The position numbers and the translations under genes are program-made. From positions 1-39,865 of the forward strand of contig CAMCYZ010000009.1 in assembly GCA_945885545.1 (NCBI GenBank): a stretch of 39,865 nucleotides of DNA, written 5' to 3'. The notes beneath the pieces are model-generated. The model had not been told where the DNA came from. It worked only from the letters and a program-made list of their open reading frames with translations, and made no database searches. The DNA is from Spirosoma fluviale. GTDB lineage: Bacteria > Bacteroidota > Bacteroidia > Cytophagales > Spirosomataceae. Below are positions 5,511-27,239 of this stretch, one piece after another. How positions within the stretch are numbered: the stretch's first letter is position 1; the number at the start of each line of letters is the position of its first letter.

Positions 5511-5989
5511 ATTTTTACGATTTAAGTGCGAAAACACCTTCGGGCAAGATAATAGAGATGGCTGATTTTAAAAATAAAGCTGTTTTGATAGTAAATACAG
5601 CTACAAAATGCGGCTTAGCTCCGCAATTTGATGGCCTCGAAAAACTGCACGAAAAATATGGAAAAGAAGGCCTTGTGGTGTTGGGTTTTCCTTGTAATCA
5701 ATTCTTAAATCAAGAACCCGAAACCAACAAGACAGTGGAAGAGGCTTGTAGAATTAATCATGGCGTTACGTTTCAGTTGACCGAAAAGGTGGACGTAAAC
5801 GGAAGCAATACCCATCCTGTTTTTAAATACCTCAAAAACGAACTTGGTGGCGGAATTTTAGGTAAATCCATTAAATGGAATTTCACAAAATTTCTTATAA
5901 CGCCTCAAGGCAAACCATTTAAAAGATACGCCCCTACCACCGCCCCTAGGGAGATTGAGGGTGATATTAGACGGGTGTTAAGGAAATAG
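5507..5989 (+). CDS. Glutathione peroxidase-family thiol peroxidase
   Basis: A 160-residue cytoplasmic peroxidase that reduces hydroperoxides, most likely using thioredoxin as in other bacterial Cys-type family members. The active-site segment NTATKCG places the peroxidatic Cys at residue 35 (Cys, not selenocysteine). FPCNQFLNQEP carries the conserved Gln, and KWNFTKFL carries the Trp-Asn pair of the catalytic tetrad. C81 in EEACRINHG is at the usual resolving-Cys position. There is no signal peptide. The start is chosen because the protein begins at the family N-terminus (MNFYDLSAKTPSG) and because its ATG overlaps the stop of an upstream mini-ORF. A repeat block with G/C-rich hairpins follows the stop codon. 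Confidence 0.93.
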   Translation: MNFYDLSAKTPSGKIIEMADFKNKAVLIVNTATKCGLAPQFDGLEKLHEKYGKEGLVVLGFPCNQFLNQEPETNKTVEEACRINHGVTFQLTEKVDVNGSNTHPVFKYLKNELGGGILGKSIKWNFTKFLITPQGKPFKRYAPTTAPREIEGDIRRVLRK

Positions 5990-6000
5990 AGGAAGTTAAA

Positions 6001-6288
6001 CCTCACCCCCCGCCCTCTCCACAGGAGAGGGGGCTTAACTGATAGAGTATTTTTGAGAATCTTCAAATATTTCAAACTCCACGCAAATAGGGAACTGTTG
6101 ATACCTCACCCCCCGCCCTCTCCACAGGAGAGGGGGCTATGAGGGAGTCAAACCTCACCCCCCGCCCTCTCCGGAGGAGAGGAAGCTTAACTGAAAAAGT
6201 ATTTTTGAGAATCTTCAAATATTTCAAACTCTACGCAAATAGGGAACTGTTGATACCTCACCCCCCGCCCTCTCCACAGGAGAGGGGG
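6001..6288. repeat. Composite intergenic repeat: four C/G hairpins and a duplicated 103-bp unit
   Basis: Four copies of a motif beginning CCTCACCCCCCGCCCTCTCC and folding back on GGAGAGG occur at about 6001, 6104, 6153 and 6256. A 103-bp segment (hairpin plus an A/T-rich tail ending GGAACTGTTGATA) is present twice, at 6001-6103 and 6153-6255, with only a few differences. The block fills the gap between gpx and the convergent TIM-barrel gene. A related hairpin occurs at 8777. It looks like a mobile palindromic (REP-like) intergenic element, not a gene. Confidence 0.85.
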
Positions 6289-10082: not shown

Positions 10083-10313
10083 ATGGCTTCAGTAACAATT
10101 GATATATTAACCGAAAAATTAAAATATGTTCCGCAAAACATTTTGGATGAAATTAATGGTTACTTGGACTCCATCTCTAAAACCAAAAATGTTGGATATA
10201 AACTTAATCAAGAGCAACAAAACATTCTTGACTCCCAGTTAAACTCCGATAAATCTAAATATCAAGATGCTGAGCTGCTTCACGATTCCTTGAAAAACAA
10301 ATATGCCTTATAA
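10083..10313 (+). CDS. Antitoxin candidate of a ParE/RelE-type module
   Basis: A 76-residue hydrophilic protein: an N-terminal MASVTIDILTEKLKYVPQNILDEINGYLD segment and an acidic, helical C-terminus. It has no recognised DNA-binding motif. It overlaps the following toxin gene by 11 nt (the toxin ATG lies inside the last codons), the classic order and coupling of antitoxin then toxin. The family resembles short Bacteroidota antitoxins annotated only as hypothetical or DUF2281-like. The call rests mainly on context. Confidence 0.7.
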   Translation: MASVTIDILTEKLKYVPQNILDEINGYLDSISKTKNVGYKLNQEQQNILDSQLNSDKSKYQDAELLHDSLKNKYAL

Positions 10314-10602
10314 AGTAATAGTTTCAGAAATAGCCAAACAAAACATTGAAGAATCTATTGGTTATTACATCGAAATGGTTAATAAAAAAGTTGCAACTCA
10401 ATTTTTAAGAGATTTTAGAAAAGTTTATAAAGCCTTACAAATCAATCCATTTTATCAATATCACGATAATAATTATAGATTCTTACCCTTTTCAAAATTT
10501 CCATATATTGCCTTTTTTATTGTTGATGAAAAAGATAAAACTGTTTTAATAAATGCAATTTTTCATACTTCATTAAATCCAGCCAAATACCCTCGACTAT
10601 AA
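10303..10602 (+). CDS. ParE/RelE superfamily toxin
   Basis: A 99-residue protein with the type II toxin fold pattern: PYKVIVSEIAKQNIEESIGYYIE at the N-terminus, a second helix ending in FLRDFRKVYKALQINP, then strands with YRFLPFSKFPYIAFFIVDE and a terminal VLINAIFHTSLNP. These match the ParE/RelE layout of helix-helix-beta sheet. A ribosome-dependent RNase (RelE) or gyrase inhibitor (ParE) role cannot be told apart by eye. It overlaps the upstream antitoxin candidate. Confidence 0.82.
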   Translation: MPYKVIVSEIAKQNIEESIGYYIEMVNKKVATQFLRDFRKVYKALQINPFYQYHDNNYRFLPFSKFPYIAFFIVDEKDKTVLINAIFHTSLNPAKYPRL

Positions 10603-10652: not shown

Positions 10653-11633
10653 TTGCTCACAGACAACCACGGACGTCCGATAAACTATCTTCGATTGGCA
10701 GTGACCGACCGATGCAACCTCCGTTGTTTTTATTGTATGCCACACGAAGGCATTGATTTTTTGCCAAAAACACACCTTTTGAGTTTTGAGGAAATGTTGC
10801 GTTTGATCAGCCTTTTGGCCGAAATGGGCATTTCTAAAGTCAGGATAACGGGCGGAGAACCGTTCGTTCGTAAGGAATTGATGGATTTCCTATGGAAAAT
10901 CTCGGAGATAGAAGGCATTCAGAAAATAAACCTGACTACCAATGGCGTGCTTACGGCTCCTTATGTGCCCCAACTCAAGCAATTGGGCATTTCGTCCATC
11001 AATCTCAGCCTGGATTCTTTGGACAGAAAACGGTTTTTTGAAATGACCCGCCGCGACGAACTGCCGAATGTTCTGAAAACATTTGACGCCATTCTCGAAA
11101 ACGATATTCCGCTGAAAATCAACTCCGTAATGATGGCGGGCAAAAACGAAGAAGACATTTTCGGTTTGGTAGATTTGGCTAAAAACCATCCCGTTGGCAT
11201 AAGATTTATAGAAGAAATGCCCTTTAATGGCGAAGGCGAAAAGCCCGAGTATTTTATGTCATACAAAAAAATAATAGAAACCATAAAGGCCAAACATCCA
11301 ACACTTTATAAAATAGCCGACGAGGCCAATTCCACTTCTTACAATTACAAAATTGAAGGTTTTGAAGGAACAATCGGCGTAATTGCGGCCTTTAGTAGGA
11401 CATTCTGTGGCACCTGCAACCGCCTCCGCATTACGCCCACGGGCGACTTCAAAACCTGTCTCTACGCCGACAGCCAAATGAACCTCCGCGATATGCTCAG
11501 GGCCGGACTGAGCAACGAAAACATCAAAGAAAAACTGCAAGCATCCATCTTGCACCGAGCCAAAGACGGCTTTGAAGCCGAGGCTGCTCGAAAAGATATT
11601 ATTTCAGAAAGTATGACCACCATCGGAGGCTAG
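10653..11633 (+). CDS. moaA: GTP 3',8-cyclase (molybdenum cofactor step 1)
   Basis: A 326-residue radical-SAM enzyme that converts GTP to 3',8-cyclo-7,8-dihydro-GTP, the first step of molybdenum-cofactor synthesis. The SAM cluster motif is C21-x3-C25-x2-C28 (CNLRCFYC). The SAM-binding GGEP is at 67-70, the second 4Fe-4S cluster uses C252, C255 and C269, and the C-terminal GG tail required for activity is intact (TTIGG). The first family residues (LTDNHGRPINYLRLAVTDRC) begin at a TTG codon at 10653; no in-frame ATG lies nearby, so a TTG start is called. The next Moco gene, moaC, is 2.1 kb downstream across a repeat region. Confidence 0.96.
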   Translation: MLTDNHGRPINYLRLAVTDRCNLRCFYCMPHEGIDFLPKTHLLSFEEMLRLISLLAEMGISKVRITGGEPFVRKELMDFLWKISEIEGIQKINLTTNGVLTAPYVPQLKQLGISSINLSLDSLDRKRFFEMTRRDELPNVLKTFDAILENDIPLKINSVMMAGKNEEDIFGLVDLAKNHPVGIRFIEEMPFNGEGEKPEYFMSYKKIIETIKAKHPTLYKIADEANSTSYNYKIEGFEGTIGVIAAFSRTFCGTCNRLRITPTGDFKTCLYADSQMNLRDMLRAGLSNENIKEKLQASILHRAKDGFEAEAARKDIISESMTTIGG

Positions 11634-11789
11634 TTTTTGGGAGTATTTTATATTTGCTGGAAAACGGAAGTGAAGAAGATATATTGAGAATCATAGAACT
11701 ACTATTTTCGGGCGAAATTAGCGTAATCTGTTGACTATGATTTTCGTTGAGCCTTCTGTATTGAAAATTCTATTTTACTGGCTTTGAGA

Positions 11790-11838
11790 CCCCTCTTCCC
11801 GATGTCGAAGCTAGATAATGAGGATTTCCAATCCGAAT
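11790..11838 (-). repeat. REP copy 1 with conserved flank
   Basis: Read on the minus strand, GATTCGGATTGGAAATCCTC is followed by ATCTAGCTTCGACATCGGGAAG, the same flank and hairpin start as at 11943 and 12479. It is directly downstream of a decayed transposase tail. This is one of five copies of the family in 11.8-13.1 kb. Confidence 0.7.
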
Positions 11839-11839
11839 C

Positions 11840-11904
11840 ATAAATTTCCAAGGCTAACGGACCGGTTCTTGTGCCATAATAATCACCACAAAGCTTTTTA
11901 AATT
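11840..11904 (-). pseudogene. Relic of REP-associated transposase C-terminal tail (copy 1)
   Basis: Minus-strand translation gives KKLCGDYYGTRTGPLALE. It shares CGDYYGT with relic 2 at 12489 and occupies the same position next to the REP flank. Only the last residues survive, so this is a degraded Y1/IS200-like (RAYT) remnant. Identification rests on similarity to the longer relics. Confidence 0.5.
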
Positions 11905-11942
11905 GCACTATTCGAGCTCACATTCGGCCCAAAATCTATCAA

Positions 11943-12479
11943 AATCGGATTGGAAATCCTATTTTATCTAGCTTCAACGTGCCCTGCGGAACATGTCGAA
12001 GAGCGGAAGGTTATAAAGCAAGACAAATACGTTGCTTTACAAAACATGTGCTTTATAAAGGAAGACGCGTGCGTTGCTTTACAAAACATGTGCGTTACAA
12101 AGAAAGACATGTGCGTTGCTTTACAAAACATGTGCGTTATAAAGAAAGACATGTACGTTGCTTTACAAAGCATGTGAGTTACAAAGGAAGACACGTGCGT
12201 TGCTTTACAAAACATGTGCGTTATAAAGGAAGACATGTACGTTATAAAGCAAGACACATGCGTTGCTTTATAAAACATGTACGTTATAAAGGAAGACATG
12301 TACGTTGCTTTACAAAACATGTGCGTTATAAAGGAAGATATGTACGTTGCTTTACAAAACATGTGCGTTATAAAACAAGACATGTACGTTGCTTTACAAA
12401 ACTAGCTAAAAGATGGTTCTACAGCTCTTCCACATCTTCCCGATGTCGAAGCTAGATAGGGAGGATTTCCAATCCGATT
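11943..12479. repeat. 537-bp element bounded by inverted REP flanks
   Basis: The left end AATCGGATTGGAAATCCT is repeated exactly as its reverse complement at the right end (12462-12479). In both ends a 3-4 nt variable stretch and then TATCTAGCTTC follow inward, giving imperfect terminal inverted repeats of about 33 bp. REP hairpins lie just inside both ends (11968-12006 and about 12423-12455). The interior is the 21-bp alternating repeat array. No coding gene is supported within it. The structure resembles a non-autonomous, MITE-like or BIME-like element. Confidence 0.75.
12010..12402. repeat. Alternating 21-bp tandem array (10 A-type and 9 B-type half-units)
   Basis: The 393-bp array alternates half-unit A (consensus GTTATAAAGGAAGACATGTAC) with half-unit B (GTTGCTTTACAAAACATGTGC), for a 42-bp period. 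The alternation breaks once, at 12220-12261, where two A units stand together; the last B is truncated. Both halves end in the palindrome ACATGT. A contains TTATAAAGCAA or a close variant and B contains TTGCTTTACAA or TTGCTTTATAA, near reverse complements, so neighbouring halves can form a chain of hairpins. Because 21 is a multiple of 3 and the units lack stops, several frames stay open; these are not taken as genes. Confidence 0.93.
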
Positions 12480-12488
12480 AAAGTTCTG

Positions 12489-12599
12489 CTAATTCAATTG
12501 GTCCTTCTTTGTTCCATAGTAATCACCACAACTACTATTTACATATTCTTCCTCTTTTTCTACAATTCCTGCCCGAACAGGATTAAAATGGATATAGCC
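12489..12599 (-). pseudogene. Relic of REP-associated tyrosine transposase tail (copy 2)
   Basis: Minus-strand translation reads GYIHFNPVRAGIVEKEEEYV then NSSCGDYYGTKKDQLN and a stop. The YIHFNPVRAGIV block is the conserved C-terminal region of Y1 (IS200-like) REP-associated transposases. The catalytic HUH and Tyr regions are absent. The coding part begins abruptly at a hairpin-containing repeat (12601). About 10 nt after its stop the REP flank begins, the usual gene-REP association. Confidence 0.8.
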
Positions 12600-12600
12600 T

Positions 12601-12660
12601 GCTGTGCGAAGGCTATTGCCTTCGTACGTGCGTATTTCGGTCTTTGACCGACGAGACACC
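12601..12660 (+). repeat. Two-hairpin palindromic element truncating transposase relic 2
   Basis: GCTGTGC is followed by hairpin GAAGGC-TATT-GCCTTC (12608-12623), a GTACGTGCG spacer and hairpin TCGGTC-TTT-GACCGA (12637-12651), ending CGAGACACC. A related element in opposite orientation lies at 12857-12917. It directly abuts the YIHFN codons of relic 2. Confidence 0.7.
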
Positions 12661-12669
12661 TACAGTTTT

Positions 12670-12845
12670 TTACCATTCGTTTATTTCAATTATACTGTTT
12701 TGCTTCGTAAAATCAATTATTGGTACTGAAGCGACACAAACATCAATAATTCCTTCATTTCTAACATAATTTGATGCACTTGAATACACGTAATCAGATG
12801 CTTTTGTAACCAAACCAGACCTCACTAGGTTCATATGAATATAGC
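12670..12845 (-). pseudogene. Relic of REP-associated tyrosine transposase tail (copy 3)
   Basis: The minus strand encodes RYIHMNLVRSGLVTKASDYV then YSSASNYVRNEGIID and a stop after about 58 codons. This is the conserved C-terminal end of Y1/RAYT transposases. The catalytic N-terminal two-thirds is missing. The frame runs on upstream into a palindromic repeat (to about 12888), but that part is not transposase-like. It differs in sequence from copy 2, so it derives from a different family member, yet it is broken at the same codon position. Confidence 0.8.
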
Positions 12846-12856
12846 GGAGCAGGTGT

Positions 12857-12917
12857 TGGGTTACTGCGGTCAGGAGACCGCTTGACACTCGTGCTTAGTC
12901 CGAAGACTAAGCACAGC
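12857..12917 (-). repeat. Two-hairpin palindromic element truncating transposase relic 3
   Basis: On the plus strand, GCGGTC-AGGA-GACCGC (12866-12881) is followed by GTGCTTAGTC-CGAA-GACTAAGCAC (12891-12914), a perfect 10-bp stem with a 4-nt loop, and then AGC. Read on the minus strand its order (GCTGTGC, hairpin, spacer, GGTC hairpin, ACACC) matches the 12601-12660 element. Confidence 0.7.
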
Positions 12918-12918
12918 T

Positions 12919-13112
12919 GGTAAAATCCTAAAATCAAATAATCTTATGAATCCTAATTCAGACATTTATTCTAGCTTCGACATGCCCTGCGGAACATGTC
13001 GAAGAGCGGGTTAAACACACGGGTAAAATCCTCAAATCAATAATCTTATGAATCCTAATTCAGACATTTATTCTAGCTTCGACATGCCCTGCAGAACATG
13101 TCGAAGAGCGGG
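12919..13112 (+). repeat. Tandem duplication of a 92-bp unit with REP hairpin
   Basis: Two near-identical copies (12919-13010 and 13022-13112) start GGTAAAATCCT, pass through CTTATGAATCCTAATTCAGACA and end in the REP hairpin CTAGCTTCGACATG...CATGTCGAAGAGCGGG, which has a perfect 10-bp stem. These hold REP copies 4 and 5. No coding content is seen between here and the DUF3024 gene. Confidence 0.88.
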
Positions 13113-13740: not shown

Positions 13741-14223
13741 ATGTCCTCATTCACCCACCTCGACACTCACGGAAATCCATCAATGGTAGATGTTGGCGAA
13801 AAAGCCGTGACCAAGCGGACCGCAACCGCACGAAGTATTGTGGTGGTAGCTGATGAAATCATGGAGAAATTTGTTGGAGAGGAAATTCACTCCAAAAAGG
13901 GTCCAGTATTCCAAACAGCCATTATTGCTGGTGTTATGGCCGCTAAAAAAACGGGTGATTTGATTCCCCTTTGCCATCCGCTAGGACTTGAAAACTGTCA
14001 AATTTTTATAAAAGTCATCGGGAAAAATGACATTGAGATTCTCTGCACCGCTTCGCTTTCTGGCAAAACAGGCATAGAAATGGAGGCCCTCACGGGTGCG
14101 AGTGTGGCTGCCCTCACAATATATGATATGTGCAAGGCAATGTCGCACAATATTGTCATCAAAGAAACAAGGTTACTTGAGAAAACTGGCGGAAAGAAAG
14201 ACTTTAAGCTTTCTGAATACTAA
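13741..14223 (+). CDS. moaC: Cyclic pyranopterin monophosphate synthase
   Basis: A 160-residue enzyme that converts the MoaA product to cyclic pyranopterin monophosphate (cPMP), the second half of Moco step 1. Family motifs are intact: MVDVGEKAVTKRTATA near the N-terminus, HSKKGPVFQTAIIAGVMAAKKT, the LCHPLGLENC active-site segment (about 77-86) and GIEMEALTGASVAALTIYDMCKA. The length is typical. It lies 250 nt upstream of the mobA fusion on the same strand, with a repetitive spacer between them. The 13509-13740 upstream gap holds only A/T-rich sequence, and no confident promoter was picked there. Confidence 0.97.
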   Translation: MSSFTHLDTHGNPSMVDVGEKAVTKRTATARSIVVVADEIMEKFVGEEIHSKKGPVFQTAIIAGVMAAKKTGDLIPLCHPLGLENCQIFIKVIGKNDIEILCTASLSGKTGIEMEALTGASVAALTIYDMCKAMSHNIVIKETRLLEKTGGKKDFKLSEY

Positions 14224-14236
14224 GTGTTTTCGCAAG

Positions 14237-14310
14237 TTGGTAAGGTGGTAAGGTGGTAAGTTTGGTAAGGTGGTAAGGTGGTAAGTTGGTAAGGTGGTAA
14301 GGTGGTAAGT
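14237..14310. repeat. Three tandem 25-bp units built of GGTAAGGT
   Basis: The unit TTGGTAAGGTGGTAAGGT followed by GGTAAGT occurs three times (25, 25 and 24 bp), itself made of a short GGTAAGGT-type repeat. It lies just after the moaC stop. Such a simple repeat is prone to copy-number change. Confidence 0.9.
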
Positions 14311-27064: not shown

Positions 27065-27239
27065 ATGTTTGGAAAAATGTGGTTGATTTTTTACGATTTT
27101 TCCAAATATAAAGTCATGTTTGGAAAAATGTAAATATTTTTTGGTGATTTTTCCAAATATAAAGCTATGTTTGGAAAAATGTGGTTAATTTTTTGTGATT
27201 TTTCCAAATATAAAACTACATTTGAATAAATTTTTTGTA
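27065..27239 (+). repeat. Three 51-bp hairpin repeats plus a degenerate fourth, upstream of AAA ATPase
   Basis: Units begin at 27065, 27116 and 27167 with an exact 51-bp period. Each contains ATGTTTGGAAAAATG, an A/T-rich loop, and GATTTTTCCAAATATAAA, so TTTGGAAAAAT pairs with ATTTTTCCAAA. A decayed fourth unit (ACATTTGAATAAATTTTTTG) runs into the start codon of the next gene. The remaining gap (26898-27064) shows no other feature. The placement and copy number suggest operator sites or a structured leader. Confidence 0.9.

Follow-up and report, generated by a model that had tools for sequence, protein, structure and literature searches.

An array of 21-bp units in Lacihabitans, probably a member of a class of intergenic minisatellites with a common step

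The nearest described system that we found for the array discussed here is BrickBuilt of Porphyromonas gingivalis, a MITE minisatellite whose 23-nt units follow one another in tandem without spacers at 19 intergenic places in strain ATCC 33277 (PMC4596501). A single unit sequence is used in BrickBuilt, which also carries a leader, a tail and inverted ends resembling those of IS5; 4 of its 19 copies keep both ends intact. In the same species, MITE464/PgRS likewise occurs at many genome places, with 41-nt tandem units in PgRS (PMC4596501). Intergenic direct repeats of the heptamer TAACTGA are reported from Beggiatoaceae, Cyanobacteria and five Bacteroidetes (PMC4679880), and the RAYT subclasses of Bacteroidetes are treated in a further paper (PMC6006769). 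BrickBuilt is also the kind of system that a preliminary description of our locus would predict, as it had proposed a REP-bounded and possibly REP-derived non-autonomous element filled with a tandem array.

The locus lies in a stretch of 39,865 nucleotides, hereafter the window, which is contig C9 of G000, a draft genome (3.92 Mb, 314 contigs). This genome and G001 to G009, the last being Lacihabitans sp. CCS-44, make up the set of ten Lacihabitans (Cytophagales) genomes compared here. We put at roughly 0.64 the probability that the array at 12009-12407 is an intergenic minisatellite and one locus of a Lacihabitans class with 21-bp units, which would have grown and been homogenised in whole units by slipped-strand replication or unequal exchange and is not cargo of a RAYT element. 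The features of the locus are as follows, with RAYT elements assigned according to our best reading.

10653-11633, plus strand: moaA, left neighbour gene of the array (Pfam Radical_SAM and Mob_synth_C)
11794-11836, plus strand: R-type REP forming the outer end of the decayed RAYT element on the left (95% identical to 12435-12477)
11849-11890, minus strand: probable remnant of a RAYT C-terminus, left element (weak tblastn match with the RAYT of a relative, E 0.007)
11943-12004, plus strand: L-type REP forming the inner end of that decayed RAYT element, previously taken as the left inverted end (from sequence matches)
12009-12407, strand not assigned: 21-bp tandem array of family S1 (from the unit cut, TRF and lag identities)
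12424-12479, plus strand: R-type REP with which the decayed RAYT element on the right starts, previously taken as the right inverted end
12492-12659, minus strand: ORF with a RAYT C-terminal remnant, right element (match at 12495-12596, YIHFNPVRAGIVEKEEEYVNSSCGDYYG...)
12964-13009, plus strand: L-type REP of the right element (second copy at 13066-13111 in a 102-bp tandem duplication)
13741-14223, plus strand: moaC, right neighbour gene of the array (Pfam MoaC)

Cut into 21-mers, the array consists of 19 units and contains no other unit length; 10 units are of an A type (GTTATAAAGGAAGACATGTRC-like) and 9 of a B type (GTTGCTTTACAAAACATGTRC-like), as the preliminary description had stated. The two types alternate with a 42-bp higher-order period, and TRF returns 42-bp arrays across 12009-12407. 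The sole break in the alternation, an A-A junction that had been noticed before, is found at 12219-12260, and the last B unit (12387-12407) matches over its first 16 bp only. Lag identities within the array are far above chance (0.84 at lag 42 and 0.57 at lag 21, with 0.21 at lags 20 and 22). Units of constant length (within the 10-100 bp of minisatellites) that follow head to tail with no spacers between them make this a minisatellite and separate it from CRISPR arrays, in agreement with the earlier view. The partial reverse complementarity claimed for A and B is weaker than stated, as an ungapped comparison against shuffled units gives 12 of 21 matches in inverted orientation (p 0.07), about the same as in direct orientation (12 of 21, p 0.05). 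Likewise, the ACATGT palindrome said to end both types is present in many units, though not in all.

Inverted ends do exist beside the array, with 18 bp perfect (11943-11960 and 12462-12479) and 76% identity over 62 bp. What they belong to is where we depart from the preliminary description. The order R-type REP, RAYT remnant, L-type REP is found twice in the window in decayed form, at 11794-12004 and at 12424-13009; the array would thus be the gap between two decayed RAYT elements, and the two REPs beside it are best read as the facing ends of these. A copy of the left element at G000:C23 has 88.6% identity over 210 bp, and the right element, which spans 12424-13009, has in its remnant at 12495-12596 a tblastn match with 76% identity over 34 aa (E 2.7e-15). 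A second Y1-type transposase C-terminal remnant was observed inside the right unit at 12673-12894, with 52% identity to the RAYT tail over 31 aa.

When relatives were searched for both the ends and the array, REP matches appeared in six of the nine other Lacihabitans genomes (7/10 with our own), and the window array itself had a blastn match only in G009 among them. An R-type REP lies ahead of an L-type one on the same strand, about 60-700 bp apart, at G008:C4, G008:C8, G002:C185, G006:C11 and G003:C98, and RAYT-like ORFs on the opposite strand lie between R and L in all three places that were translated (G006:C11, G002:C185 and G008:C8). At G006:C11 this ORF reaches 116 bits with NCBIfam NF047646 (cut-off 80), i.e., a REP-tyrosine transposase gene stands between two REPs in the order R, RAYT, L. 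The ORFs at G002:C185 and G008:C8 are RAYT-like pieces, and the window has decayed remnants only.

These observations bear directly on the proposal that the array belongs to a non-autonomous element (MITE) derived from REP or RAYT sequences, comparable to BrickBuilt. The 18-bp perfect inverted ends speak for such an element, as does the precedent in Bacteroidota (PMC4596501). At G009:C58:181282-182416, an L-type REP is followed about 1 kb on by an R-type REP, the reverse of the RAYT order, with other ORFs and neither a RAYT nor an array between them; an L...R pair around foreign DNA is therefore not unique to the window, and this could also be counted in favour of the MITE. However, the REPs of the window fit the ends of two flanking RAYT remnants, and among 26 arrays with a 21-bp step only that of the window has a REP within its flanks of up to 300 bp. 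It is also the only one with inverted flanks beyond shuffles, the next lowest reaching 3/60, in a comparison where some flanks are shorter than 300 bp and some matches are adjacent arrays with overlapping flanks. With 25 of 26 arrays lacking both marks in the examined flanks and RAYT remnants on either side of this one, the REP-bounded or REP-derived element is largely refuted, and we regard it as highly improbable. The lesson is that two adjacent dead transposons can imitate one bounded element.

In G008, the stretches matching moaA and moaC of the window are separated by about 165 bp, and G002 and G003 cease to resemble the window at 11747, ahead of the array. The island between moaA and moaC is therefore either a gain in our own lineage or a loss elsewhere. 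The best explanation is that this island holds the array and also received two RAYT elements, since decayed, without the array being their cargo. Several further features were observed in the window. An 8-bp AAGGTGGT array lies 3' of moaC at 14234-14309 and has similar stretches elsewhere in the genome, while a ParE-like toxin upstream of moaA (10303-10602) scores 22.6 bits in Pfam, just under the cut-off of 23. A TRF-type repeat search of the window gave a 51-bp tandem repeat at 27065-27214, and a 152-bp direct duplication is found at 5989-6288.

Other arrays of the same family, which we labelled S1 (the labels S1 to S4 are coined here), are present at G000:C83, G009:C62, G006:C5 (two), G006:C11, G006:C10 and G008:C4, all without a REP in the examined flanks; that at G009:C62 is 84% identical to the window array. 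Three more unit families have a 21-bp step, namely S2 (CGGCGATTTCGTGTTCAACAT-like), S3 (TTGATTCAACATATACCAAAC-like) and S4 (AGCTTTTACACTTTGTCTTAC-like). Their arrays came up beside S1 arrays or at loci chosen for other reasons, those of S2 later by similarity too, and one S2 array used as blastn query gave matches in six of the ten Lacihabitans genomes, our own included. On the sequence comparisons made here, the Lacihabitans arrays are a class of intergenic minisatellites with a common 21-bp step, for which we found no earlier description. Among the literature matches listed, titles and abstract openings gave no account of 21-bp arrays in the group, and of the works naming Lacihabitans none was, by its title, on its repeats.

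How many families the class contains depends on the unit consensus. In tests of 22 arrays, p <= 0.05 was obtained in 37 of 63 within-family pairs versus 12 of 168 between-family pairs, where about 8 are expected. Pairs of S1 and S2 remain at chance (3/64 at p <= 0.05), whereas the S4 array at G009:C42 resembles S1 in four pairs and S2 and S3 share four pairs (p <= 0.05). There are therefore at least two independent families, S1 and S2, and not surely four; judged by these resemblances, a distant kinship of S3 and S4 with S1/S2 is possible, which would reduce the four families to two.

In the Lacihabitans DNA examined (loci outside the genus excluded), 41 distinct arrays have a period between 5 and 64 bp. 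The common step is seen in 25 of these, with a period of 21, 42 or 63, although this share overstates the bias because many S1 and S2 arrays were gathered by resemblance to known ones. A blind sample of 1.94 Mb, filtered for a TRF score of 120 or more and cleared of long-unit rows that had fewer than 2.5 copies, had period 42 in 2 of 13 TRF arrays. Lag scans of samples gave no 21-bp multiple in G001, G004, G005, G007, G008, two genomes from other genera or, apart from the window, G000; in G002 and G003 they gave only weak lag-126 signals. Arrays were later located by follow-up searches elsewhere in G000, G002, G003, G007 and G008, while neither lag scans nor later searches found 21-bp-step arrays in G001, G004 or G005. 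Indels are few (0-4%, at 70-93% matches) in seven long arrays of 21-bp step from outside the window, all with TRF scores of at least 257, and many arrays of the class are 42-bp higher-order repeats. Weak TRF rows of 2-3 copies, with periods of 20-63 and up to 15% indels, also exist and are not counted as members. Arrays of 7 or 14 bp account for 6 of the 41. No 7-bp substructure is found in S1 (p 0.42-0.88, six arrays), and p < 0.05 is reached in only 2 of 18 arrays; descent from heptamers is thus unsupported for S1.

The array had also been expected to fold as a chain of hairpins. With both strands folded, this holds for the minus strand as RNA (z -6.9; 0/100 shuffles and 0/60 column-permuted arrays equally stable) and fails for the plus strand (z -0.45; 5/60 column-permuted arrays equally stable), while the minus strand folded as DNA has a weak excess (z -1.4). 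Against 60 column permutations, six of eleven arrays are beaten by at most two (window, G000:C83, G009:C62, G009:C60a, G008:C4a and G009:C60b); for the remaining five, 4, 21, 24, 29 and 46 permutations are as stable, i.e., there is no clear fold excess. The minus-strand fold in the window could mean that a transcript of this strand forms a hairpin chain and acts as RNA, either as a 3' UTR stabiliser or as a small RNA. The related array at G009:C62, in the same orientation, has the same strand bias (0/60 versus 4/60), which would fit such a role. However, the two arrays are homologous and amount to a single observation, five of the eleven arrays have no clear fold excess, and Rfam gives no match in the window at gathering thresholds, so that we consider an RNA function very unlikely.

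Open reading frames of 158 aa and 139 aa span the window array on its two strands, as expected from a stop-poor unit of 3n bases. Since 21 bp is seven codons, they could be taken for a sequence encoding heptapeptide repeats, and a 36-bit match to the CCT motif points the same way, although no single stretch passes. Across arrays, however, stops fall in differing frames, and no codon position is consistently favoured for variation in 16 arrays, which have neither a codon-position bias nor an open frame in common. Stop-to-stop frames of at least 250 aa enclose none of 25 arrays with a 21-bp step. With no single conserved open frame and no consistent third-position bias of variation in the 16 arrays, a coding heptad repeat was rejected and seems to us scarcely credible; the window array is apparently non-coding.

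The unit length of a minisatellite is usually regarded as an accident of the first duplication, and 21 bp corresponds to two turns of B-DNA. In the minisatellite reading that we prefer, growth and homogenisation would proceed by slipped-strand replication or unequal exchange of whole units. Such exchange would require units in register, so that indels would be purged; slippage may in addition be helped by hairpins, as several arrays are quasi-palindromic. That the array grows and decays by unit duplication, as proposed earlier, is supported by the A-A junction, by homogenisation at the level of dimers and by an orthologous array of another family whose unit make-up differs in two species. Slippage alone leaves unexplained why unrelated units share 21 bp; therefore, common descent too old to see, a two-helical-turn ruler or selection would be needed. 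The blind sample, with period 42 in just 2 of 13 TRF arrays, and the samples in which lag scans met no 21-bp multiple also count against our favoured explanation.

A ruler of this kind could be provided by a helically phased platform, in which quasi-palindromic units that all show one face would be bound by a protein of nucleoid or regulatory type, possibly homodimeric, so that the spacing is selected and the sequence drifts in concert. The 21-bp step common to S1 and S2, families without detectable kinship, agrees with this, as do the few indels of the long arrays and the fold excess in 6 of 11 arrays (at most 2/60 permutations as stable), which indicates units rich in inverted symmetry. On the other hand, the binder is only putative, the arrays have no common position relative to neighbouring genes, and five of the eleven have no clear fold excess. 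Phasing of A/T at 10.5 bp within units was significant (p < 0.05) in no more than 2 of 22 arrays; as a general unit property it was therefore rejected. We consider the phased platform possible, though rather doubtful. If unkindred families do share exactly 21 bp, a physical ruler or selection would set the unit length in this bacterium, and these arrays would offer a system in which this is testable.

Turnover of units can be followed where two genomes share a site. At the 3' end of a LytTR gene, both G003:C111 and G007:C115 carry an array, and the flank beside it is 89% identical between them. The array in G003 is a 42-bp higher-order repeat with a single 1-bp register slip near its end, and that in G007 is partly of the same 42-bp type and otherwise of a 21-bp type, still in register. 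Unit make-up thus differs between G003 and G007 at this shared S2 site; at the window site, similarity ends before the array in G002, G003 and G008. The DUF1572 gene adjoining the array G006:C5e has no 21-bp-step array at any of nine matching loci in eight other genomes, and a tenth locus, in G000, ends too early to judge. The right flank of the S4 array at G009:C60 has none at its four matching loci, and in G002 a related S4 array lies about 3.4 kb from the stretch that matches this flank. At G006:C16:73108-73397, an 86% match to the array G006:C5e, located elsewhere, covers the array only; going by this match, arrays may disperse within a genome. The left flanks of the S2 arrays at G000:C157 and G007:C124 match with 82% over 98 bp, which suggests an orthologous site. 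In G007 this site borders cas9, and in G000 the contig ends shortly past the array.

Beyond the genus, the S1 search of 200 genomes of the family gave three with matches including our own, of which the third (G014) is a 55-bp match and not an array. S2 matches were found in 13 of 390 genomes of the order, our own and three congeners included, and outside the genus those longer than 68 bp occur only in G276 (two places, 92-98 bp, 74-75%). This search drew genomes evenly with two candidates each and missed the S2 carriers G002, G003 and G007, so its absences mean little. The S2-like matches at G276:C122 and C119, from another family of the order, may represent arrays outside the genus. A pattern scan of GTDB gave four stretches, of which only the one in Lacihabitans sp. 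CCS-44 is an array. Viral contigs had no match to either pattern, and plasmids gave seven records, six with moaC and one unannotated match. An inverted repeat in Arachidicoccus (L077) that resembles S1 has no 21-bp lag signal and was discarded.

With the N-terminal 207 aa of Cas9 from G006 as query, which more divergent Cas9s would escape, we found cas9 in four of the ten Lacihabitans genomes and detected none in our own. All four cas9 loci found have a 21-bp-step array 5' of the gene: G006:C5, G007:C124, G008:C4 and G009:C1 (L281-L284, L250). Measured from called ORF starts, the gap between array and cas9 is 213 bp in G006, 163 bp in G007 and 228 bp in G008, and in G009, where a WYL-like regulator gene intervenes, the distance is about 1.6 kb. 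The unit families are S3 and S1 in G006, S2 in G007, S2 and S1 in G008, and S2 in G009. The outer neighbour genes differ between G006 and G008, where from sequence we take them to be epimerase-like and CoaBC-like, respectively, and G007 runs to the contig start. A 58-aa stretch of Cas9 is 74% identical between G006 and G008, and the compared pieces of G007 and G008 are only 31% identical; the pattern hints at exchange at the 5' end of cas9. The position of arrays beside cas9 suggests non-random placement, which we count against our favoured explanation.

Further neighbours of this kind are Cas10, 493 bp from the array at G006:C11, and a type III methyltransferase, 400 bp from that at G009:C62. 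Most other arrays, that of the window included, have no such neighbour among the scanned proteins, which cover part of the neighbours; such neighbours are therefore a lead and not a rule. No array position relative to neighbouring genes is shared. We also observed a family of proteins of about 118 aa, present in 4 of 10 genomes and with seven copies in all (L153:11135-11482, L062:601-957 and L285-L291), of which five have a 21-bp-step array within the surrounding locus. It has no match above cut-off in Pfam (one copy scanned), PADLOC (two) or NCBIfam (two).

A more far-reaching reading would be that Lacihabitans keeps largely sequence-independent, 21-bp-ruled intergenic arrays at the borders of accessory modules, above all CRISPR-Cas9, as phased landing or recombination platforms, with the helical register and not the letters under selection and with modules exchanged across arrays. 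Its basis is the array 0.2-1.7 kb from the cas9 start at all four loci, with differing unit families and, where comparable, differing outer neighbours. We consider it unlikely. If it were true, the arrays 5' of every cas9 found in the genus would tie tandem repeats to the exchange of defence modules.

Compared with known systems, the window array shares direct repeats with CRISPR arrays, and some arrays of its class adjoin cas9 or cas10, but it consists of 21-bp head-to-tail units without spacers. RAYT/TnpA-REP elements (NCBIfam NF047646; PMC6006769) account for the REPs next to the array and for the remnants with YIHxNPVRAG, while the array is no part of them. The TAACTGA heptamers (PMC4679880) are likewise dispersed intergenic tandem repeats of fixed unit length and patchy occurrence, and 21 is 3 x 7; the Lacihabitans unit length is nevertheless different, and S1 lacks a 7-bp substructure. 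Like BrickBuilt and PgRS, the Lacihabitans arrays occur in Bacteroidota as spacer-free tandem units at many places per genome. Unlike BrickBuilt, they have several unit sequences on a common 21-bp step and no inverted ends of their own, those in the window belonging to RAYT remnants.
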